This document shows, one piece after another, positions 28,501 to 41,418 of a stretch of 48,974 nt of DNA. Where the stretch lies: assembly GCA_036389795.1 (NCBI GenBank), contig DASVWD010000157.1, forward strand, positions 1-48,974, written 5' to 3'. A program made the position numbers and the translations under genes. The notes under the pieces are model-generated. The model saw only the letters and a list, made by a program, of their open reading frames with translations, did no database searches and was not told where the DNA came from. The first letter of the stretch is position 1. Each line of letters opens with the position of its first letter. The stretch comes from Longimicrobium sp. (GTDB lineage Bacteria > Gemmatimonadota > Gemmatimonadetes > Longimicrobiales > Longimicrobiaceae).

Positions 28501-28584
28501 ATGAACACCGCTACCGGCATCCGCGCGGGGAACGACTCGGGGCAGGACGTCGACTACAGGATCTCGCCCGGCGGCAGCCACTGA
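28501..28584 (+). CDS. Tandem-array microprotein A1 (27 aa)
   Basis: First gene of block A. It begins at an ATG preceded by GAGGAGGAAG and reads MNTATGIRAGNDSG, then QDVDYRISPGGSH. It shares TGIRAG, GQDxDxR and SPGG with A2-A5. There is no Cys, no hydrophobic segment and no signal peptide. No match to a known family comes to mind. Differences between copies are largely at third codon positions, so the peptide itself appears to be under selection. Confidence 0.8.
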   Translation: MNTATGIRAGNDSGQDVDYRISPGGSH

Positions 28585-28663
28585 ACATCCGGGGCGGGTG
28601 GGCGCGCGTGGGGCCACCCGGCCGGATCGGCTCCACCCCACGCACCAGGGCCACGGAGGTCCC
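28585..28663 (+). repeat. 79-nt intercistronic spacer 1 with hairpin
   Basis: This is one of three spacers of exactly 79 nt in block A. CGGGTGG (28595-28601) pairs with CCACCCG (28614-28620). The end, CCACGGAGGTCCC, supplies the ribosome site for A2. Confidence 0.75.
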
Positions 28664-28741
28664 ATGCACGCAGCCACCGGCATCCGCGCGGGGACGGGAC
28701 AGGACGTGGACTACAGGCTCTCGGGCGGCGACAGCCACTGA
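28664..28741 (+). CDS. Tandem-array microprotein A2 (25 aa)
   Basis: It reads MHAATGIRAGTG, then QDVDYRLSGGDSH, with GGAGG 4 nt before the ATG. Compared with A1 it lacks the two residues ND after the RAG motif, but keeps GQDVDYR. Being in-frame, this deletion keeps the reading frame, as expected of a real coding sequence. Confidence 0.8.
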   Translation: MHAATGIRAGTGQDVDYRLSGGDSH

Positions 28742-28820
28742 ACACCCGGTCGGGTGGGTGGGCGTGGGACCCACCCGGCTGGTCGACTCCCATCCTACGC
28801 GCCAGGACCACGGAGGTCAC
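28742..28820 (+). repeat. 79-nt intercistronic spacer 2 with hairpin
   Basis: CGGGTGGGT (28751-28759) pairs perfectly with ACCCACCCG (28769-28777). The stem is two pairs longer on the loop side than in spacer 1. The right end CCACGGAGGTCAC is the ribosome site of A3. Confidence 0.75.
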
Positions 28821-28901
28821 ATGCACGCAGCTACCGGCATGCGCACGGGGAACGACGCGGGACAGGACATCGAGTTCAGGATCGCGCCCGACGGCCGCTG
28901 A
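28821..28901 (+). CDS. Tandem-array microprotein A3 (26 aa)
   Basis: It reads MHAATGMRTGNDAG, then QDIEFRIAPDGR. It is the most divergent member of block A (I to M, A to T, D to E, Y to F, S to A), yet all changes are conservative or at variable sites and the GQDxxxR core holds. Confidence 0.78.
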   Translation: MHAATGMRTGNDAGQDIEFRIAPDGR

Positions 28902-28935
28902 GCCCACCCCACGCACCAGGACGACGGAGGGTCAC

Positions 28936-29010
28936 ATGCACGCAGCTACAGGTATCCGCGCGGGAGGGCAGGACATCGACATCAGGACCTCGCCCGGCGG
29001 CAGCCACTGA
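28936..29010 (+). CDS. Tandem-array microprotein A4 (24 aa)
   Basis: It reads MHAATGIRAGG, then QDIDIRTSPGGSH, with GGAGG 6 nt before the ATG. It is the shortest copy and lacks the whole NDS segment. The spacer before it (28902-28935) is a 34-nt remnant corresponding to the right end of the 79-nt spacer, so the hairpin part has been deleted there. Confidence 0.78.
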   Translation: MHAATGIRAGGQDIDIRTSPGGSH

Positions 29011-29089
29011 GCACCGCGGCCGGGTGGGCGCGCGTCGGGCCACCCGGCCGGACGGCTCCACCCCACGCACCACGACGACGGAGGGTCAC
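29011..29089 (+). repeat. 79-nt intercistronic spacer 3 with hairpin
   Basis: GGCCGGGTGG (29018-29027) pairs perfectly with CCACCCGGCC (29040-29049). Downstream, CCGGCCGGACGGCTCC resembles the left arm of the block terminator. The spacer ends GACGGAGGGTCAC, the ribosome site of A5. Confidence 0.75.
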
Positions 29090-29167
29090 ATGCACGCAGC
29101 TACCGGCATCCGCGCGGGGAACGACTCGGGGCAGGACATCGACTTCAGGATCTCGCCCGGCGGCTAG
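29090..29167 (+). CDS. Tandem-array microprotein A5 (25 aa)
   Basis: Last gene of block A. It reads MHAATGIRAGNDSG, then QDIDFRISPGG, ending before the SH seen in A1, A2 and A4. It is followed 37 bp later by a strong terminator. Confidence 0.8.
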   Translation: MHAATGIRAGNDSGQDIDFRISPGG

Positions 29168-29204
29168 CGGCCGAAGCGCCTCCGCATCGCGGAGGGCCGC
29201 ACCC

Positions 29205-29245
29205 GGCCGGACGGCTCCCGCGAGCCGTCCGGCCCGAGCGTTTTA
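29205..29245 (+). terminator. Terminator of microprotein block A
   Basis: GGCCGGACGGCTC (29205-29217) pairs perfectly with GAGCCGTCCGGCC (29222-29234) around CCGC, followed by CGAGCGTTTTATC. The same 13-bp stem closes block B at 30112-30141. Confidence 0.88.
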
Positions 29246-29420
29246 TCTCCGCCGGACGACCGATCGACGCCGGGTCGCCATCCCTGGTTTCCGAGCCTGC
29301 CGCGGCCGGGTCCTGTGCTCGTCCCGTATGCACGCACGACAGCCGAGCCCACCCAGTCCGCACCACGGCCCGCTCGCCCACAGTTCATCCCAACCTCCAC
29401 GCGCGCACGGCCATCCACGG

Positions 29421-29449
29421 GTACCCTGGACCGTGGCTCCGGTACGACG
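29421..29449 (+). promoter_or_regulatory. Upstream element of microprotein block B
   Basis: GTACCCTGGACCGTGGCTCC and GGTACGACG stand 67 bp before the first ATG of block B, aligned with the element before block A. GGTACGACGCCGG follows. It is a probable shared promoter or operator region. Confidence 0.55.
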
Positions 29450-29487
29450 CCGGGGGCCACCGCTTCCCCGGGACGAGGGAGGTTCCG

Positions 29488-29583
29488 ATGCACACCTCGA
29501 CGGCTCTCCGTGCGGGCATGGACGTCACCAACAGCACGGGCGAGAGCACGGATTACCGGGTAACCGCCAGGCCGGGCGGCTGA
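29488..29583 (+). CDS. Tandem-array microprotein B1 (31 aa)
   Basis: First gene of block B, with GGGAGG 6 nt before the ATG. It reads MHTSTALRAGMDVTNSTG, then ESTDYRVTARPGG. It joins the MH start of block A with the RAGMDVxNSTG and TDYRV core of block B, so it links the two subfamilies. Confidence 0.8.
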   Translation: MHTSTALRAGMDVTNSTGESTDYRVTARPGG

Positions 29584-29620
29584 CCGGGACACCCCCGACT
29601 CCCTGACCAGGAGGCCCACG

Positions 29621-29716
29621 ATGAAGAACGCCACGAGCATCCGTGCGGGGATGGAAGTCTCCAACAGCACGGGCCAGAACACGAACGTCAGGGTCACCGG
29701 CACCGGCGGAAACTGA
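29621..29716 (+). CDS. Tandem-array microprotein B2 (31 aa)
   Basis: It reads MKNATSIRAGMEVSNSTG, then QNTNVRVTGTGGN. AGGAGG stands 6 nt before the ATG. The spacer before it is only 37 nt. The usual TDY is changed to TNV; the RAGM and NSTGQNT parts hold. Confidence 0.8.
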   Translation: MKNATSIRAGMEVSNSTGQNTNVRVTGTGGN

Positions 29717-29729
29717 GCGGGAGGCCACG

Positions 29730-29828
29730 ATGAAGACCGCCACCAGCATCCGTGCGGGGATGGAAGTCTCCAACGGCACGGGCCAGAACACCGACTACCG
29801 GGTCAGCGGCACCGGTGGTCAGGGCTGA
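29730..29828 (+). CDS. Tandem-array microprotein B3 (32 aa)
   Basis: It reads MKTATSIRAGMEVSNGTG, then QNTDYRVSGTGGQG, and is nearest to the block consensus. Only 13 nt separate it from B2, and GGGAGG within that gap is the ribosome site, so B2 and B3 are probably translationally coupled. Confidence 0.82.
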   Translation: MKTATSIRAGMEVSNGTGQNTDYRVSGTGGQG

Positions 29829-29841
29829 GAAGGAGGATCGG

Positions 29842-29934
29842 ATGAACGCCACGACCAGCATCCGCGCGGGGATGGACGTGTCCAACAGCACGGGGGAGAG
29901 CACGGGATACCGGGTCCTCGGCTCCGGGCAGTGA
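29842..29934 (+). CDS. Tandem-array microprotein B4 (30 aa)
   Basis: It reads MNATTSIRAGMDVSNSTG, then ESTGYRVLGSGQ. It starts 13 nt after the B3 stop with AGGAGG in between. The Asp of TDYRV is Gly here. Confidence 0.82.
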   Translation: MNATTSIRAGMDVSNSTGESTGYRVLGSGQ

Positions 29935-29986
29935 GCCCGCGGACAGCGCGCCATCTGGAGAACGACCCATGCACGCAGAGGCAACG

Positions 29987-30088
29987 ATGAAGACCACGAC
30001 CAGCACCCGCGCAGGAATGGACGTTTCCAACAGCACGGGCCAGAACACGGACTACCGCGTCGCCAGCGGTGGCGGCGGATCTCCCTGA
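29987..30088 (+). CDS. Tandem-array microprotein B5 (33 aa)
   Basis: It reads MKTTTSTRAGMDVSNSTG, then QNTDYRVASGGGGSP. An in-frame ATG at 29969 would add six residues (MHAEAT), but alignment with B2 and B3 places the start at 29987, with GAGG 5-6 nt ahead in both. The upstream MHA resembles block A and B1 starts, so this leader may be a fossil of a fused copy. Synonymous differences from B3 and B4 (GCA/GCG, GGA/GGG, GTT/GTC) support coding. Confidence 0.8.
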   Translation: MKTTTSTRAGMDVSNSTGQNTDYRVASGGGGSP

Positions 30089-32399: not shown

Positions 32400-32903
32400 T
32401 TATCGCCAGGTGTTCGGGTTCTCGCGGTCCAGGTGCCACGCCAGCGGGTTCTCGGCGATGTACTTCCGCACCTTGAAGAGTTCTTCGTCCGTGCGGATCA
32501 CCCGGTCATGGAATCCCCGCTGCCAGATCGTAGTGCCCGGGGTGTTCCGGAGCGTGTTGACGCGTGACGACACCGCGGACTTGAACGAACCGACAATGGA
32601 ACCAAGCGCAGGCATACGACCACCTTGCCCTGAGCCTGCCGAGCGCTGCGTGAGGTCGAGAATACCGTGCACATGGTTCGGCATGACGACGAATGCATCG
32701 ATCACCACACCGGGGTAGTGCGTAGGGATCTCATCCCAGCATAAACGGGCAATTTCACCTGCATCGGAAAGACGGACTCCATTCTCATGCACCTCTCCGA
32801 ACAGCAGCGCCCGGTCGTGCGTACAGATCGTGACGTAGTACATCCCCGGCTGAGAGTAATCGTACCCCCGTACCCGCGTGTGCTTGCGTACCGGCAGATC
32901 CAT
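32400..32903 (-). CDS. REP-associated tyrosine transposase (RAYT)
   Basis: A 167-aa Y1-type HUH nuclease. YSQPGMYYVTICTHDRALLF is the N-terminal strand. VVMPNHVHGILDL holds the HUH metal site (His77 and His79), and KVRKYIAENPLAWHL holds the catalytic Tyr148 in the YIxxNP motif characteristic of RAYTs rather than IS200 elements. The length is typical. Four palindromes of the REP type lie within 350 bp upstream, in both orientations, which is the classical RAYT/REP arrangement. All catalytic residues are intact, so the enzyme may be active in spreading REPs. ATG 32903 is chosen because the region upstream of it contains the REPs. Confidence 0.95.
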   Translation of the reverse strand: MDLPVRKHTRVRGYDYSQPGMYYVTICTHDRALLFGEVHENGVRLSDAGEIARLCWDEIPTHYPGVVIDAFVVMPNHVHGILDLTQRSAGSGQGGRMPALGSIVGSFKSAVSSRVNTLRNTPGTTIWQRGFHDRVIRTDEELFKVRKYIAENPLAWHLDRENPNTWR

Positions 32904-32913
32904 TTGTCTCTCC

Positions 32914-32938
32914 GTAGGGGCGAGGCATGCCTCGACCG
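32914..32938 (+). repeat. REP palindrome 1
   Basis: GTAGGGGCGAGGCATGCCTC then GACCG; the central 14 bases CGAGGCATGCCTCG are a perfect palindrome. It lies 11 bp upstream of the RAYT start codon. Confidence 0.85.
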
Positions 32939-32983
32939 TGAATGCCAGTCCCTGCACGAGCGCTCCCCGTCGCACTGAAACCT

Positions 32984-33009
32984 CGTAGGGGCGAGGCATG
33001 CCTCGACCG
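32984..33009 (+). repeat. REP palindrome 2 (same orientation as 1)
   Basis: CGTAGGGGCGAGGCATGCCT then CGACCG, the same as copy 1 over its core and both flanks, about 70 bp further from the RAYT gene. Confidence 0.85.
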
Positions 33010-33113
33010 CTGGATCTTCGCCCTGGTACACAGGCCACTAAACGGACGGACCTTACAATCGCGTCAATTCCGCCGAAACGCAATAGTTAGTCGAGGGAGT
33101 GGATACACCCAGT

Positions 33114-33153
33114 GTATCCGCCGGGACGGGCGAGGCATGCCTCGCCCCTACGG
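33114..33153 (-). repeat. REP palindrome 3 (inverted)
   Basis: TGTATCCGCCGGGACGGGCG then AGGCATGCCTCGCCCCTACG. The palindrome here extends to 20 bases, GGGCGAGGCATGCCTCGCCC. The CCCCTACG flank is on the right, so it points opposite to copies 1 and 2. Confidence 0.85.
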
Positions 33154-33203
33154 ACTGTGGGGCGCTGGCCAGCTGATATCGAGGCGGAGACCGCCTCACC
33201 CGG

Positions 33204-33245
33204 CGTATCCGCCGGGAACGGGCGAGGCATGCCTCGCCCCTACGG
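33204..33245 (-). repeat. REP palindrome 4 (inverted)
   Basis: CGTATCCGCCGGGAACGGGC then GAGGCATGCCTCGCCCCTAC and GG. Copies 3 and 4 share about 40 bp including the GTATCCGCCGGGA flank, forming a direct repeat 91 bp apart. Confidence 0.85.
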
Positions 33246-33403
33246 TGGGATGTGGCACAGAGCAGCCGGGAGGCCGGGGCGGGACCGCCCTGGATCGCCC
33301 CGGTCGCTTCCCCGCGCGGCCCCCGCGACGTAGATTGCCCGCCTTTCGAACTCCCGGGCCGGCCGCCGGCCCGGACCGCGCTCCCCCGCAGCGCCGCGAC
33401 CCC

Positions 33404-33784
33404 GTGGGCCCCTTCCGCAGAGGCCTCAGCCGGGCCTGGACCGACCCCGACTCGCCCGACCCGCGGCTCACGGGGCGCGAGTACGCCGTCCCCTTCGTAC
33501 GGGTGTGGACCGCAGCGCTGGAGACCGCGGCCCAGGGGCAGCGCTGGACGGTGCTGGCCAGCGACCCCCGCCGCGGCGAGATCCACGCCGAGGCGCGCCC
33601 GCGCCTGCAGCGCTTCGCCGGCGACGTGTGGGTGCGCGTCTCGCTCGACGAGGACGGCCAGACCCGCGTGGACGTCGCCTCGCAGTCGCGCCGCGAGGGC
33701 GCCGACTTCGGGGCCAACGCCCGCCGGATTGCCCGGTTCTTGCACGCGCTCGACCGCCGCCTCGGCGACGGGGCGCCGGGCTAA
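33404..33784 (+). CDS. DUF1499-family protein
   Basis: The conserved part is TGREYAVPFVRVWTAALETA, then ASDPRRGEIHAEARPRLQRF, VRVSLDEDGQTRVDVASQSR and NARRIARFLHALDRRL. This is the order seen in DUF1499 proteins: a helix after the YxVPF motif, a beta-sheet with DVxxRV, and R-x-G-x-x-D-x-G-x-N-x-x-R-I at the end. It has no signal peptide at the GTG chosen (33404), and no clear ribosome site, so the start is uncertain; the frame is open further upstream through the REP repeats. It ends 24 bp before lon and may be co-transcribed with it. Confidence 0.75.
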   Translation: MGPFRRGLSRAWTDPDSPDPRLTGREYAVPFVRVWTAALETAAQGQRWTVLASDPRRGEIHAEARPRLQRFAGDVWVRVSLDEDGQTRVDVASQSRREGADFGANARRIARFLHALDRRLGDGAPG

Positions 33785-33808: not shown

Positions 33809-36226
33809 ATGCCGAAGCTCCCGGAGCGGATCCCGGTCCTCCCCATCCGCAGCACCATCGTCTTCCCCGGCGGGGCCACGGCGCTGCAGATCGGCTTCGC
33901 CCCCAACGTGGAGGCGCTCACCCGCCACCCCGAGCGCGACCTGGTGGTGGCCATGGTGTCCACCTCCGACGACGACTTCCCCCTGGACCCGCGGGGGCTG
34001 GAGAAGGTCGCCACCGCCGTGCGCGTGCTGGACCGGCTGAACCTCCCCGGCGGCACCATCCAGACCACCCTCCAGGGCTTGCGCCGCATCCGGCTCGACG
34101 ACGTGCGGCTGGAGGACGACTATTACTCGGCCACCCCGCGCGAGGTGAAGGAGGTCCCCGCCGCGCCCGAGGACGCCGACCCGCTCATCGAGAAGGTCCT
34201 CAGCACCCTGGGCGGGGTGGCCGCCCGCGTGGAGCGCATCCCCGACGAGGTGCCGCGCATCCTGCGCATGAACCTGGGCGACCCCGGCCGCTTCGCCGAC
34301 CTGGCAGCCAACCTCTGCAACCTCAAGCTGCAGGCGCGCGACGCGGTGCTCCAGGAGCTCGACGTGGAGAAGCGCCTGCAGCTGGTGCTGGCCGCGCTCG
34401 AGGAGGAGTGGGAGCACCTCCGCGAGATTGAGCACGAGCACGAGGCCGCCCAGGGCGAGGAGCCGCTCCCCCAGGGCGGCCGGGAGCGCAGCGCCGAGAT
34501 CCGCCGGCGCATCCAGTCGCTGCAGGCCGAGCTGGGCGAGCTGGACCCGGTGGAGCGCGAGGCGAACGAGGCGCTGCGCCTGGTGGAGCGCGCGCAGCTG
34601 CCGCCGCGCGTGGCCGCCACCGCCCGCCGCGAGGCCGAGCGGCTGCGCTCCACCTCGCTCACGGCGTCCGAGGCGCAGGAGATCCGCGCCTACCTCGACA
34701 CGCTCGTCTCCATCCCCTGGACGCGGCAGGCCAACGGCGGCGTGATCGACCTGGCGGCCGTGCGCACGGCGATCGACTCCGAGCACCTGGGGCTGGAGGA
34801 GCCCAAGCGCCGCCTGCTGGAGGTGGTGGCCGTGGCCGAGTTGCGCGGCGACCTGCGCGGCCCCATCCCCTGCCTGGTGGGCCCGCCCGGCGTGGGGAAG
34901 AAGACGCTGGCCCAGGCTGTGGCGCAGGGGCTCGGCCGCCCCCTGGTGCGGCTGGAGCTGGGCGGGCGGAGCGAGGCCCAGCTGGTGGGCTCGCGCCGCT
35001 CCAGGAGCGGCGCGCAGATGGGCAAGCTCATGCAGCTCATCCGCGACTCGGGCGCGCGCGACCCCGTGTTCCTGCTGGAGGAGCTGGACGAGGTGGGGCT
35101 CGGCAACGTGGACGGCGATCCCGTGGAGGCGCTGGAGGAGACGCTCGACCCCGAGAACCGCGACGCCTTCACCGACCGCTACCTGGACGTGCCGTTCGAC
35201 CTCTCCGAGGTGTTCTTCATCGGCTCGGCGGCCGACTTCTACCGCATCCCGCGGGACCTGCGCGACTACTTCATCGAGATCCGCATCGCCGGCTACACCC
35301 CCGAGGAGAAGATCGCCATCGCGCGCGAGTGGCTCTTCCCGCGCATCGTGGCCGAGCACGGGCTGCTGCCGGAGCACGTGCGCATCGACGACGACGCGCT
35401 CCTCTTCCTCACCCGCGGCTACGCGCGCGACTCTGGCGTCGGCAACCTGCGCCGCTCGCTCGCCGCCATCATGCGCTACATCGCCGCCGAGCGGGCCGTG
35501 GGCACCGACGCGTGCTGGATCATCGACCGCGGGCTGATCGAGGAGGTGCTGGGCTACCCGCGCCACAGCGCCACCCCCGCCGAGTCGGCCCCCGAGGTGG
35601 GCGTGGTCACGGGGCTGGCGTGGACGGCTTCGGGGGGCGAGCTGATGTTCATCGAGGCGCTCAAGATGCCGGGGACCGGGCGGCTGATCATCACCGGCCT
35701 GCTGGGCGACGTGATGCGCGAGTCGGTGAACGCCGCCTTCAGCTACGTGCGCTCGCGGGCCCGGGAGCTGGGGATCGAGAAGGGCGCCTTCGTCGACTTC
35801 GACATCCACGTGCACTTCCCCGTGGGCGCCACCCCCAAGGACGGCCCCTCGGCGGGCGCGGCGGTCACGCTGGCCATCGCCTCGTCGCTCTCCGAGCGCC
35901 CCGTGCGCCACGACGTGGCCATGACGGGCGAGGTTACGCTGCGCGGCAAGATCCTGGAGATCGGCGGGGTGAAGGAGAAGGTGCTGGCCGCGTACCGCGC
36001 CGGCATCCAGCAGGTGATCCTCCCCTCGGGGAACAGGCGCGACCTGCGCGACGTCCCCGCCGACGTGCGCGAGGGGATGAGCTTCCACTTCGCGGACCGC
36101 ATGGACCAGATCTTCGACCTGGCGCTCCTGGGCGAGCCCAGGGTGGTGCGCGACGAGGAGGAGGAGCCCTCCGAGCCCGTCCGCCTCCCCGTCGAGCCCG
36201 ACCGCCAGGCCGCGAAGGAAGCGTAG
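33809..36226 (+). CDS. lon: Lon-family protease with divergent ATPase motifs
   Basis: An 805-aa protein with full Lon architecture: an N-terminal LON substrate domain (RIPVLPIRSTIVFPGGATAL), a helical linker to about 300, AAA+ (about 330-560) and S16 protease (about 580-770). The protease dyad is intact: Ser681 in PKDGPSAGAAVT and Lys722 in IGGVKEKVLAAYRAG. The ATPase is atypical. Walker A reads GPPGVGKKTL, with Lys365 where Thr/Ser is expected; Walker B is VFLLEELDE (Glu424 for Asp); sensor 1 is FFIGSAAD with Ala for Asn; sensor 2 is SGVGNLRR with Gly545 for Arg; the pore loop RTYIG is RSRSG. ATP hydrolysis is therefore doubtful although the fold is preserved. It probably degrades proteins in the cytosol, by a different mode from standard Lon, and may be a paralogue of a housekeeping Lon elsewhere. 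Confidence 0.95.
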   Translation: MPKLPERIPVLPIRSTIVFPGGATALQIGFAPNVEALTRHPERDLVVAMVSTSDDDFPLDPRGLEKVATAVRVLDRLNLPGGTIQTTLQGLRRIRLDDVRLEDDYYSATPREVKEVPAAPEDADPLIEKVLSTLGGVAARVERIPDEVPRILRMNLGDPGRFADLAANLCNLKLQARDAVLQELDVEKRLQLVLAALEEEWEHLREIEHEHEAAQGEEPLPQGGRERSAEIRRRIQSLQAELGELDPVEREANEALRLVERAQLPPRVAATARREAERLRSTSLTASEAQEIRAYLDTLVSIPWTRQANGGVIDLAAVRTAIDSEHLGLEEPKRRLLEVVAVAELRGDLRGPIPCLVGPPGVGKKTLAQAVAQGLGRPLVRLELGGRSEAQLVGSRRSRSGAQMGKLMQLIRDSGARDPVFLLEELDEVGLGNVDGDPVEALEETLDPENRDAFTDRYLDVPFDLSEVFFIGSAADFYRIPRDLRDYFIEIRIAGYTPEEKIAIAREWLFPRIVAEHGLLPEHVRIDDDALLFLTRGYARDSGVGNLRRSLAAIMRYIAAERAVGTDACWIIDRGLIEEVLGYPRHSATPAESAPEVGVVTGLAWTASGGELMFIEALKMPGTGRLIITGLLGDVMRESVNAAFSYVRSRARELGIEKGAFVDFDIHVHFPVGATPKDGPSAGAAVTLAIASSLSERPVRHDVAMTGEVTLRGKILEIGGVKEKVLAAYRAGIQQVILPSGNRRDLRDVPADVREGMSFHFADRMDQIFDLALLGEPRVVRDEEEEPSEPVRLPVEPDRQAAKEA

Positions 36227-37671: not shown

Positions 37672-37941
37672 ATGAAGTGGCCTCTATCGATCCCAGGCAA
37701 TTCCCGTGGAGTCACGATGAGCCGATCTCTTGCTCCTCGCCCGGAGCGGCGGTCCGCCAAGACGCTACTCTGCTACGTCCTGCCGGTTCAGTCGGAGTTG
37801 GCGCCGGTGTCGGCGCCGTGGCACCGCCGCCCCACCTTTCCAGCGGTGCCCCACCGCCAGCCGCAGTATTCGCAACGCAACCCCCGTGTGCACAGCGGCG
37901 CCGTTCGGAGCTCCCGGCTCCGCGCGCAAACGGGTAAGTGA
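37672..37941 (+). CDS. Possible small protein of unknown function (89 aa)
   Basis: ATG 37672 has a reasonable GGAG site 6-7 nt upstream. The product (MKWPLSIPGNSRGVTMSRSL...) is basic and Pro/Arg-rich with no domain I recognise. A competing frame from the GTG at 37677 gives an 86-aa Gly/Ala/Pro-rich product (ending in CAQRRRSELPAPRANG), and the choice between the two is not clear. It could be a non-coding leader of the SARP gene that begins about 200 bp downstream. Confidence 0.3.
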   Translation: MKWPLSIPGNSRGVTMSRSLAPRPERRSAKTLLCYVLPVQSELAPVSAPWHRRPTFPAVPHRQPQYSQRNPRVHSGAVRSSRLRAQTGK

Positions 37942-38138
37942 TTATGCGCCCGCTGCTTACGTTGGACAGTACCCCCCCGCCGCGACGGGCGGTCTTCCTG
38001 CCCTGTGCTGCTGGAATTCAAATAAACCACAGAACCGGCCTCGGAGTTGCCACTGAAAAGTTGGCGTCTCGCGCACCGTCCTTCTCGCGGAGCGCCCCGG
38101 GCCACACGCGTTTCCGACACACACCCATCCCTTCCATT

Positions 38139-39122
38139 ATGACGGCAACGAACTTCGGGCCACGGCTCTACCTGCGCACGTTCGGCGCTCCCCATCTGCT
38201 CGCCCACTCGGTTCCCTTCAAGCTGCGGGCGAAGGACCTGGCGCTGCTGGTGTACCTGCGCCTGCAGCAGCCGACCGTCCACCGCCGCACCAGGCTGGCG
38301 GCGCTCCTGTGGGCCGAGCACTCCGAGCACGACGCGCGGCACTCGCTCACGCAGGCTGTCGTCCGGCTGCGCAAGGTGCTGGGCGCGGGGTCCATTGTCA
38401 CTACCAAGGAAACGGTCCAGTTCGTCGGGCGACTCGAGTGCGACGCCGCGCAGCTGCAGGAGGCCGCGCGCCGCGACGAGCCCGGGCTGCTGGAGCTCTA
38501 TGCGGGCGAGTTCCTGGCCGGGCTGAGCCTGGGGGAGGGCGCCCACGACTTCGACAACTGGGCGAGCGCGCGGCGGACGGAGTACAGGGAGCTCGCGGCC
38601 GGGCTGCTGGACCGGTGGGGCGCGGCCGCCGAGGAGCGCGGCGACTGGCCCGCCGCGCTCCGCTTCGCCCAGCGCCAGGTGGAGATCGACGAGTACGACG
38701 AGTCCGGGCACCGGCGCGCGATGCGGGCCTTCGAGGCCCTCGGCCAGCGCAACCGGGCCCTCCTGCACTACATGCAGTACGCCGCGCGCGTGCTCTCCGA
38801 GCTGGGGCTGAAGCCGGAGGACGAGACCACGGCCCTGTACGAGAAGATCCGCCGCTCCGCCGGCCCCGACTCCCCCGGTCCCCCCGATTCGCCCGATCCT
38901 CCCGATCCCCCCGACCCGCCCGAGCCGGGCCCTTCCCTCCCCGGCCCGTGGGCGGGACCGGCCCCGGCCGCACCGGAAGCGGAAGCGGGCGGCGAGCCGC
39001 GGGAGGCGGAGCCCGATGGCGCACACCCGGCGCGGCGCCGCTGGCTGGTGCCCGCGGCGTTGGCTGCGGGGCTCGCGCTCGCCTGGGCGGCCACACGCGG
39101 CGGCCCGCGCCTCCACCTGTAG
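38139..39122 (+). CDS. SARP/BTAD-type transcriptional regulator with C-terminal membrane anchor
   Basis: A 327-aa protein from ATG 38139. Residues 8-95 form an OmpR-like winged helix (FKLRAKDLALLVYLRLQQPT, then RTRLAALLWAEHSEHDARHS and LTQAVVRLRKVLG). Residues 100-245 are the bacterial transcriptional activation domain, with helical repeats such as LLELYAGEFLAGLSLGEGAH and GDWPAALRFAQRQVEIDEYD. A Pro/Asp-rich spacer (PPDSPDPPDPPDPPEPG) encoded by CCCGATCC-type repeats follows. A hydrophobic segment, WLVPAALAAGLALAWAA, lies near the C-terminus. The protein may be held at the inner membrane while binding DNA. A second, shorter relative lies at 40693. Confidence 0.88.
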   Translation: MTATNFGPRLYLRTFGAPHLLAHSVPFKLRAKDLALLVYLRLQQPTVHRRTRLAALLWAEHSEHDARHSLTQAVVRLRKVLGAGSIVTTKETVQFVGRLECDAAQLQEAARRDEPGLLELYAGEFLAGLSLGEGAHDFDNWASARRTEYRELAAGLLDRWGAAAEERGDWPAALRFAQRQVEIDEYDESGHRRAMRAFEALGQRNRALLHYMQYAARVLSELGLKPEDETTALYEKIRRSAGPDSPGPPDSPDPPDPPDPPEPGPSLPGPWAGPAPAAPEAEAGGEPREAEPDGAHPARRRWLVPAALAAGLALAWAATRGGPRLHL

Positions 39123-39200
39123 CGCGTCCTGTCACCCCGCCGGATCACAGGATTCCTCATAGACGGAGATGGGCGGCGGTGCGGTCTCCGCCGAAGAGCC

Positions 39201-39232
39201 GAGGGGCGGCCGTGGACCGGCCGCCCCTCTTC
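39201..39232 (+). terminator. Stem-loop terminator after the SARP gene
   Basis: GAGGGGCGGCCG (39201-39212) pairs perfectly with CGGCCGCCCCTC (39218-39229) around TGGAC, then TTCCGC. It lies about 80 bp past the SARP stop. Confidence 0.75.
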
Positions 39233-39320
39233 CGCGTCATCCCCGGCGGTCCTCCTGGGCGGCGAGGCCGCGTGCGTCGCGCGCGGCGAGACGCGCCGGG
39301 GAGGCCGCACGGGGCTCCGG

Positions 39321-39500
39321 CTAACAGCGCGTCCCTGAACCGAGCATGCCGTTGCGACAGACGGTGTCGGGCGGCTGGGTCGTGTCTTCGAAGCGCGGCT
39401 GCACGGAGCTGGTCGTGTCCCGCGGCTCCGTGGGCAGGGAGTCGGCGCACGCCGCCACGAGCGCGGCGGCCACCAGTGCGGCAAAGAACTTTCTCGTCAT
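39321..39500 (-). CDS. Small lipoprotein peptide, copy 1 (59 aa)
   Basis: The product starts MTRKFFAALVAAALVAACAD, a lipoprotein signal with lipobox VAAC (Cys18). The mature part is about 42 residues, SLPTEPRDTTSSVQPRFEDT, then TQPPDTVCRN and GMLGSGTRC, with two Cys at the end. It is nearly the same as the copy at 39833-40018, and most of the difference is a short insertion. The function is unknown; such small secreted lipoproteins often accompany SARP-like regulators in these genomes, which is my inference. Confidence 0.8.
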   Translation of the reverse strand: MTRKFFAALVAAALVAACADSLPTEPRDTTSSVQPRFEDTTQPPDTVCRNGMLGSGTRC

Positions 39501-39832
39501 TTTTCCTTCTCCGTTAAACGGTGAGGGGGTGCGCTCGGCGTTGTCACCGAGCAGGTTGGCACCCACCAAGGCTATTGTGGACCTCGCACATAAAACGAAT
39601 TTTCCCCGCACCTCCCGCTCAGGTGCGGCGTGCACCATGGCCTCCCCCCGCACGGTCGCCGCTCACCTGCGGCTCGCCTGAGAATTTGCCTGAGAATTAG
39701 TAGGACGGGCGGGGAGAATTTCACCCCTGGAGCCGAGCCCCCGGCCGACTCGCCTGGTACGAGTATGCGGAAAACGAAAATCCTTCCGCATTCCGCCGCG
39801 GCCGGGCGCCGACGCCACGGAAGACCCCCGGA
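39501..39832. other. Interval between the lipoprotein peptide copies
   Basis: About 330 bp with the upstream region of copy 1. Just upstream of both copies lies CTTCTCCGTNANACGGTGA (39507 and 40023 regions), a conserved short block that probably belongs to their promoters or leaders. No further gene is seen. Confidence 0.5.
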
Positions 39833-40018
39833 TCAGCACCGGGTGCCCGAGCCGAGCATCCCGTTGCGGCACGTGGTGTCGGGCGGCGGCTGGGTTGCCC
39901 CGTCCTCGAAGCGCGGCTGCACGAAGCTCGTCGTGTCCCGCGGCTCCGTGGGCAGGGAGTCCGCGCACGCCGCCACGAGCGCGGCGGCCACCAGTGCGGC
40001 GAAGAATTTTCTCGTCAT
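39833..40018 (-). CDS. Small lipoprotein peptide, copy 2 (61 aa)
   Basis: The first 31 residues, including the lipobox MTRKFFAALVAAALVAACAD, are identical to copy 1. It then differs as SFVQPRFEDGATQPPPDTTC, but ends with the same CRNGMLGSGTRC. The two extra residues keep the frame. The pair arose by recent tandem duplication of about 500 bp; the conserved C-terminal Cys-x10-Cys may form a disulfide. Confidence 0.8.
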   Translation of the reverse strand: MTRKFFAALVAAALVAACADSLPTEPRDTTSFVQPRFEDGATQPPPDTTCRNGMLGSGTRC

Positions 40019-40204
40019 CTTACTTCTCCGTCAGACGGTGAAAGGTGCACCCGGCATGGCACCGGGCAGGTTGCGCCTTCCACGCTATCGGCCACCCCGC
40101 ACCCGGGACGCACGCGCCCCGCACTCGGGGCACACGCAGCTCGCACCCGAGGCGCACACACCCCGCACCGAAAGCACACGGACGTTTGCACCGGCGTCAG
40201 ACGT

Positions 40205-40337
40205 GGCGTAATCACTGATCCGCAACCCCGCACGCGTCGCGAGGCCTCGATGAACATCAGCTCGCCCCCGAGGCCGTCCACGCCAGCCCCGTAACCACGC
40301 CACTTCAGGGACCGACTCGGCGGGGGTGGCGCTGTGG
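40205..40337 (-). pseudogene. Fragment of a lon gene
   Basis: The minus strand here matches positions 35570-35698 of the lon gene in this window. In the best part, from CCACAGCGCCACCCCCGCCG to GAGCTGATGTTCATCGAGG, I count about five substitutions and three single-base deletions over some 97 bases. Deletions break the frame, so it cannot code. It carries the segment just before the S16 protease domain only. It is a decayed partial duplicate in the repeat-rich accessory region. Confidence 0.9.
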
Positions 40338-40415
40338 TGTTGGTGCACAGTCGCTTCACGTCTCTTGTCACTGATTTGCAATGGCGCGAAGGGAGTCTTG
40401 CTGTCTCTAAGTGCA

Positions 40416-40467
40416 GAGATTGCACACCCCTACCACTGTGCGTGCGAGCGCGTGCACAACGCTCCTT
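40416..40467 (+). repeat. 52-bp direct repeat, copy 1
   Basis: It reads GAGATTGCACACCCCTACCA, then CTGTGCGTGCGAGCGCGTGC and ACAACGCTCCTT. Copy 2 lies 203 bp further on and lacks only two bases (GA). The sequence is rich in GTGC/GCAC motifs that could bind a dimeric regulator. Confidence 0.9.
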
Positions 40468-40618
40468 GAGGGCCAACAATTACAAACACGACGAATTTAT
40501 AGGACTTATTTGCGACAAGTGGTGACGTTCCTCTCTGGTCCTAGCCTTGCCCCTCTCCAGGCCCGCTATGGGGTTGTAAGGTCTTGGGCCTGTAGGATCG
40601 CCCTGAGGCTGACACTTC

Positions 40619-40668
40619 GAGATTGCACACCCCTACCACTGTGCGTGCGCGCGTGCACAACGCTCCTT
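40619..40668 (+). repeat. 50-bp direct repeat, copy 2
   Basis: It has the same sequence as 40416-40467 except a two-base deletion in the GTGCGAGCGC part. It ends 25 bp before the start codon of the second SARP gene, so it overlaps its promoter-proximal leader. Confidence 0.9.
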
Positions 40669-40692
40669 TACTGGAGAACGTGGGAGGAAGGG

Positions 40693-41418
40693 ATGGAGCG
40701 AGACGGGCGGAAGTTCCTCCAGACGCTCGGGCACCCGGTCCTGCGAAGGGAGGACGGCAGCGTCGTGGGCGGCCTGCTGCGCTATCGCAAGGACCTGGCG
40801 CTCCTGGCCTACCTGGCCATTGAGGGCGCCCGGCCGCACTCGAGGGCCTGGCTGGCCGCGCTGCTTTGGGGCGAGAGCACCGAGCGCCTCGCCCGGCACT
40901 CGCTCACCCAGACGCTCGGGCGCATCGCGCGCACGGCCGGCCGCGACGCGCTGGTGGTGGAGAGGGAGAGCGTGCGCTGGACGGGCGCCGTGCAGTGCGA
41001 CGCGGTGCTGCTGCTCGGCGGCGGCCCGCCCGCGGGCGTAGACGACGAGCTCGCGCTCTACGCGGGGCCGTTCCTGGAGGGCTTCGAAGCGGGCTTCGGG
41101 TCGAGGGAGTTCGACGAATGGGCGGGGCGCCGCCGCGCGGACCTGCGCAACGCGGCGCTGGCCCGGCTGGAGCGGCTCGGCGCCGAAGCCGAGGCTACCG
41201 GTGACTGGGACCGCGCGCTCCGCTTGGGCGAGCGCGCTGTACAGATCGACCCCGTCTGTGAGCAGGGGCGGCGGCGGGTGATGCGCGCGCTGGCCGCCCG
41301 GGGCGAGCGCAACCGCGCTCTGCGCTACTACGAGGAGTTCGCCGCCTGGCTGAAGAAGGAAGTCGGAGCCGACCCCGACCCCGACACCCGCGCGTTGGCC
41401 GAGCGCCTGCGCGCCTGA
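40693..41418 (+). CDS. SARP/BTAD-type transcriptional regulator (short form)
   Basis: A 241-aa protein from ATG 40693 with a strong GGGAGGAAGG ribosome site. Residues 5-90 are the winged helix (RYRKDLALLAYLAIEGARPH, then RAWLAALLWGESTERLARHS and LTQTLGRIART). Residues 100-240 are the BTAD domain (ELALYAGPFLEGFEAGFGSR, then GDWDRALRLGERAVQIDPVC and RALRYYEEFAAWLKKEVGAD). It has the same architecture as the regulator at 38139 but no Pro-rich spacer or membrane anchor. Its own promoter region has the 50-bp direct repeats. The target genes may include the small lipoprotein peptides nearby (inference). Confidence 0.9.
   Translation: MERDGRKFLQTLGHPVLRREDGSVVGGLLRYRKDLALLAYLAIEGARPHSRAWLAALLWGESTERLARHSLTQTLGRIARTAGRDALVVERESVRWTGAVQCDAVLLLGGGPPAGVDDELALYAGPFLEGFEAGFGSREFDEWAGRRRADLRNAALARLERLGAEAEATGDWDRALRLGERAVQIDPVCEQGRRRVMRALAARGERNRALRYYEEFAAWLKKEVGADPDPDTRALAERLRA

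Follow-up and report, generated by a model that had tools for sequence, protein, structure and literature searches.

The lon gene described here probably encodes a LonA protease that lost its motor on the stem of its clade but kept its protease, and that works as an energy-independent, self-compartmentalised (chambered) enzyme for unfolded chains. Judging from the alignments, the residues lost across the clade serve Mg-ATP hydrolysis, inter-subunit catalysis and aromatic gripping. The gene lies in a 48,974-nucleotide stretch of Longimicrobium sp. DNA, hereafter called the window.

The lon gene and its motifs

The 805-aa open reading frame has Pfam matches to every LonA domain, namely LON_substr_bdg, AAA, Lon_lid and Lon_C, and is accepted by TIGR00763, “endopeptidase La”, by a small margin (628 bits, with a cut-off of 608). 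The initial annotation had read a Lon without frameshift, and the frame is indeed open and full-length. Its GC3 of 0.99, which matches that of the neighbouring real genes, is a strong coding signature. The best scoring PDB relatives are full-length LonA proteins, 6u5z (530 bits) and 7p6u from Thermus (510 bits). Neither Rfam matches nor a CIRCE heat-shock element were found in searches of the window.

Table 1 Features of the lon locus, in window positions
Feature	Position	Strand	Evidence
LonA paralogue, dead ATPase motifs and intact protease dyad, 805 aa	33809..36226	+	open frame, Pfam/NCBIfam domains, AF2 model
N-terminal LON_substr_bdg domain, residues 8-197	33830..34399	+	PF02190, 83 bits
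Degenerate Walker A, GPPGVGKKT, residues 358-366 (Lys364 kept, Thr to Lys365)	34880..34906	+	alignment
Pore loop 1, RRSRSG, residues 396-401 (Tyr to Arg399)	34994..35011	+	alignment
Walker B, FLLEELDE, residues 421-428 (Asp to Glu424; Glu425 kept)	35069..35092	+	alignment
Sensor 1 region, FFIGSAADF, residues 469-477 (Asn to Ala475)	35213..35239	+	alignment
Arg-finger region, RDLRDYF, residues 482-488 (Arg to Tyr487)	35252..35272	+	alignment
Sensor 2 region, RDSGVGNLRR, residues 540-549 (Arg to Gly545)	35426..35455	+	alignment
Lon_C Ser-Lys protease domain	35522..36130	+	PF05362; Ser681 codon 35849-35851, Lys724 codon 35978-35980
Small DUF1499 gene, ends 24 bp upstream of lon	33404..33784	+	PF07386, 45.7 bits on longer ORF 32942-33784; start codon uncertain, GTG at 33404 one candidate

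When aligned with E. coli Lon and a set of 66 canonical Lons, the protein showed all five ATPase and pore-loop substitutions that the initial annotation had named: E. coli Thr363 to Lys365 in Walker A, Tyr398 to Arg399 in the pore loop, Asp423 to Glu424 in Walker B, Asn473 to Ala475 in sensor 1, and Arg542 to Gly545 in sensor 2. A sixth change had been missed, the arginine finger, where E. coli Arg484 is replaced by Tyr487. The E. coli residue occurs in 66/66 canonical Lons at each of these positions, apart from sensor 1 with 65/66. Lys364 of Walker A is retained, as is the catalytic Glu425 of Walker B. Six ATPase and pore residues are gone, four of them clade-wide, and the sequence thereby gives good support for the loss of both ATP hydrolysis and ATP-driven translocation. 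With its invariant P-loop Gly and Lys, the sequence is compatible with either of the two forms that the annotation had offered, an ATP-independent or a binding-only Lon.

The protease site is of the A-type, KDGPS681AG, with a Pro before the Ser. Ser681 had been placed correctly, but the Lys722 proposed as its partner is a neighbour of the catalytic residue and is an Arg in 12/66 canonical Lons. The catalytic Lys is Lys724, 43 residues past Ser681, a spacing identical to that of Ser679 and Lys722 in E. coli.

The fold, which had been described as preserved, is predicted to be that of LonA, at least in a monomer model, because the AAA+/protease core superposes on the solved LonA chains 6u5z_A, 7yuh_A and 4ypl_F with TM-scores of 0.89-0.90. 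This AlphaFold2 model, made from a mixed alignment of 73 Lons, has a mean pLDDT of 89.9, and most of the AAA+ and protease domains exceeds 90. An alignment of 21 clade members only gave a poor protease domain (mean pLDDT 76.8), which the mixed alignment repaired.

A clade of dead-motor Lons

A search of 61 related genomes retrieved full-length copies, 55-82% identical, from two families of the same order (f1 and f2), and additional fragments at contig ends. The 22 full-length orthologues form a single clade (support 100), within two families of one Gemmatimonadota order; the changes are thus common to a clade, a point that the initial annotation had proposed to check. Named records of clade members (L057-L061) are metagenome-assembled Gemmatimonadetes bacteria, one of them binned as Proteobacteria. 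In an order-wide search of 154 genomes at E <= 1e-200, matches were confined to f1 and f2, with none in family f3; one f1 match, in G013, was a canonical Lon (L027). In a phylum sample of 395 genomes, full-length dead-motor Lons scored 1274-1429 bits, and the next full-length proteins, from Gemmatimonadaceae (f7), at most about 1046 bits.

Ser681, Lys724 and the Walker A Lys364 are present in all 22 members, and the P-loop residues Gly358, Pro359, Gly363 and Lys364 are invariant among the aligned ones. No member retains the arginine finger, the sensor-2 Arg, the Walker B Asp (Glu in 18/22) or the pore Tyr (Arg in 21/22, Gln in one). For such losses, common to all members, the simplest placement is the clade's stem. 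Walker A Thr/Ser survives in 7/22, with Lys, Arg or Ala in the other 15 (Lys/Arg in 13), and sensor-1 Asn in 2/22. The Walker B catalytic Glu is found in 20/22.

The recurrence of the changes in 22 orthologues from independent assemblies rules out chance and sequencing error. Misalignment was rejected as well: the motifs align in 88 sequences and their flanking residues are conserved.

Canonical relatives

The closest relatives outside the clade are second LonAs of Gemmatimonadaceae, at about 50% identity (e.g. L153, G088). All copies inspected carry canonical motifs (GPPGTGKT, RRTYVG, IDEIDK, CTAN, DRM/DRL and GLR). In the maximum-likelihood tree, the dead-motor Lons form one group (SH-aLRT 100) beside these sequences (99), on a long stem of 0.47, so that their place inside LonA has a support of 99-100. 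A tree calculated without the AAA+ columns, under a mixture model, again placed the dead-motor clade beside the Gemmatimonadaceae copies; therefore, the altered motifs themselves do not create the grouping.

All 25 genomes found to carry a dead-motor lon in the 61-genome search have another Lon elsewhere. The second, canonical lon that the annotation had suggested looking for is present in the window's genome, at G000:C9 (L036), and the two further co-resident Lons that were read (L037 and L038) are canonical too, with the motifs GKT, RRTYVG, LDE, ATAN, DRM and GVR intact in all three. Co-resident Lons are about 43-47% identical to the dead-motor Lon over the AAA+/protease part, fall in a distant subclade of the tree and have no genomic linkage to it. 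In its translation, the canonical Lon at G000:C9 (L036/L002) has a long acidic Ala-rich insertion directly before Walker A.

The plasmid relatives listed are distant (<40% identity), and the one with motifs read (L035) is canonical. Family f3 of the same order has a different second LonA (L028, L031, L040 and others), canonical and only about 39% identical, and this difference indicates that Lon paralogues arose more than once in the phylum. Among a wider Lon set from many phyla, the sole notable motif exception was a Gemmatimonadota LonA (L167, from G128 of family f10) with an HRSYAG pore and a sensor-1 Ser, and with the arginine finger and sensor 2 intact. It is possibly a milder case of the same drift.

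Selection and constraint

Near-invariant columns, defined as at least 97% conserved in the 66 canonical Lons, were lost in the dead-motor clade at 18 of 62 positions in the AAA+ domain, compared to 1 of 42 protease positions and none of 7 N-domain positions. The difference between AAA+ and protease has a Fisher p of about 0.0005, although the columns are not strictly independent. Mean pairwise distances within the clade are 0.468 for the AAA+ domain and 0.231 for the protease (ratio of about 2.0), and in the canonical Gemmatimonadaceae sister 0.222 and 0.300 (about 0.74). By these measures, the constraint that lay on the motor now lies on the protease.

Every domain and pair tested gave a dN/dS below 1, with 0.06-0.09 for the AAA+ domain in two close pairs. 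A GC3 near 0.99 compresses dS, and hence these ratios are overestimated, if anything. Such values indicate that the AAA+ domain of the clade is still under purifying selection and not simply drifting. Furthermore, several residues that are rare or absent elsewhere are fixed or nearly fixed in the clade: Arg399, Glu440, Glu443, Arg451, Asp476, Phe477, Glu490 and Asp541.

Genomic neighbourhood

Among 16 neighbourhoods of the dead-motor lon in f1 and f2, 11 contained a relative of the DUF1499 gene; none was seen near the four canonical Gemmatimonadaceae lon genes examined, which adjoin a gene reading as ffh. Because DUF1499 recurs beside the dead-motor lon and not beside the Gemmatimonadaceae genes, it is a probable operon partner, and perhaps the two are functionally linked.

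Further features were observed in the window. An array at 28501-30088 (+), directly upstream of a prolyl-oligopeptidase gene, comprises ten short ORFs of 24-33 aa, and a GGAGG-like ribosome site accompanies most of them. They fall into two sub-families, starting MHAATGIRAGNDSGQDIDFRISPGG and MKTATSIRAGMEVSNGTGQNTDYRVSGTGG, and have the look of peptide-precursor genes in a family that multiplies in tandem. In a congener (G008), 19 matches lie on contigs C142 and C57, and none were present in 29 other relatives searched. At 32400-33250, on the minus strand, a REP-associated tyrosine transposase (NF047646, 63.8 bits, under the cut-off of 80) is adjoined by four REP-like palindrome copies around GGGCGAGGCATGCCTCG. 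Downstream of lon, two consecutive ORFs with bacterial transcriptional activator (BTAD) domains (37938-41418, +) are possibly fragments of large regulators.

Discussion

We favour the reading of an energy-independent, chambered LonA. Its subunits would still form a hexameric ring. The AAA+ layer would act as a vestibule, either static or gated by nucleotide, and arginines would line the pore in a ring. The N domain would recruit chains that are unfolded, damaged or tagged; these would diffuse into the Ser-Lys chamber and be cleaved there with no ATP hydrolysed, in the manner reported for LonC. ATP-driven unfolding would be the job of the canonical Lon in the same genome. The precedent is MtaLonC: its AAA+ module is without the catalytic residues and shows no ATPase activity, its hexamer binds six nucleotides, and it degrades unfolded substrates only, without needing ATP (PMC3391209). 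The pore-loop aromatics of Lon, replaced here, grip the substrate, and mutation of Tyr565 in human LONP1 slows casein degradation (PMC8163871).

Some points weigh against this reading. In canonical LonA, the protease site is switched on partly by the nucleotide state, and for this reason a Lon whose motor is dead could have a latent protease. Since the P-loop Gly and Lys (22/22) and mostly the catalytic Glu (20/22) persist, the clade may also have kept a residual role for nucleotide. Classic AAA proteins tolerate the loss of the sensor-2 Arg alone, and some clade members still have the Walker A Thr/Ser or the sensor-1 Asn. A nucleotide-gated protease, in which ATP or ADP is bound by the intact P-loop but not hydrolysed, and in which this binding keeps the ring assembled or acts as a switch for the protease site, would make the adenylate level an allosteric regulator. 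We consider this unlikely overall, yet it is the strongest of the competing explanations. The invariant P-loop and the nucleotide bound without hydrolysis by MtaLonC (PMC3391209) agree with it, but the Mg-coordinating Thr/Ser is replaced in 15/22 members, the Walker B Asp is gone in all 22, both gamma-phosphate-reading arginines are lost, and the retained P-loop may be structural. An enzyme that is still driven by ATP, its site rebuilt by the Lys/Arg and Glu substitutions, is very improbable. The retained Walker A Lys and catalytic Glu, together with purifying selection on the AAA+ domain, would suit such an enzyme; however, the arginine finger is absent along with the sensor-2 Arg throughout the clade and the pore Tyr is never retained.

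Pseudo-enzymes frequently regulate active paralogues, and the dead-motor Lon could, as the initial annotation had proposed, be a partner or regulator of the canonical one, through mixed hexamers or through substrate competition by the N domain. The sole fact in favour is the second Lon in every genome with a dead-motor lon, canonical where read. This role is improbable, as the two proteins are distant in sequence and in the tree, their genes are unlinked, and a perfectly kept protease site would be needless for a pure regulator. A decaying duplicate or an assembly artefact could account for an AAA+ domain evolving about twice as fast as the protease, but is already refuted by the intact frames of 22 full-length orthologues from two families; a pseudogene was likewise rejected. 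Moreover, dN/dS is below 1, the protease is nearly invariant and new residues are fixed in the AAA+ domain, which leaves decay with a negligible probability.

Going beyond the favoured reading of an energy-independent LonA, we tentatively suggest a new subtype of Lon. In a single event, its LonA AAA+ ring would have ceased to be a motor and become an immobile entry gate with positive charge (the pore Tyr becoming Arg, alongside newly fixed residues such as Glu443, Arg451 and Asp541). Charge and unfolding state, not ATP, would then set the choice of substrate. In that case, fuel-free Lon proteolysis would have arisen a second time, independently, and the DUF1499 protein encoded by the adjacent gene might control it. 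No description of an ATPase-dead LonA, or of Lon in Gemmatimonadota, was found in a search confined to an open-access collection of papers; as far as these papers show, fuel-free Lon was known before only as LonC. A LonA clade with a lost motor and a tightly constrained protease suggests that the fuel-free type can evolve from an ordinary ATP-dependent enzyme. The canonical sister at about 50% identity offers a before-and-after comparison, and the clade allows a direct test of the extent to which LonA proteolysis depends on ATP hydrolysis and not on the ring architecture. There is also a practical side: because TIGR00763 accepts the protein, annotation pipelines can be expected to name it “endopeptidase La” (ATP-dependent), which would hide the loss.

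Compared to known systems, the protein shares with LonA (E. coli Lon, Meiothermus LonA, mitochondrial LONP1) its descent, the domain order (N domain, helical part, AAA+, Ser-Lys protease), the KDGPSAG site, the predicted fold and TIGR00763. It differs in being without the Walker A Thr, Walker B Asp, sensor-1 Asn, arginine finger, sensor-2 Arg and pore aromatic, with an Arg in the pore instead. By sequence, its descent is that of LonA, but its motifs are not those of an ATP-dependent one. The second LonA of Gemmatimonadaceae is its nearest relative and belongs to the same LonA subclade, yet has canonical ATPase motifs in every copy inspected. BrxL, a Lon-related BREX protein, has a distant Lon-like C-terminal domain, and its similarity is limited to a weak hit in the protease domain.

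The likeness to LonC (MtaLonC, Thermus TTC1975) lies in an intact Ser-Lys protease combined with an AAA+ module without catalytic residues, on the LonC side by description (PMC3391209). LonC, however, is without the LonA N domain and has a helical-hairpin extension (PMC9569914). TTC1975 matches only residues 618-756, in the protease domain, with 33-35 bits, compared to 480-530 bits for bacterial LonA. The stretch from Ser to Lys and the region that follows match LonA without gaps, in a comparison made with LonA sequences, which would argue against LonC-specific insertions in the protease domain. Horizontal replacement by LonC was considered and rejected. A specific kinship to LonC over the whole length was not found, and these relationships indicate that the ATPase was lost independently of LonC. 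By analogy, the function probably resembles that of LonC.
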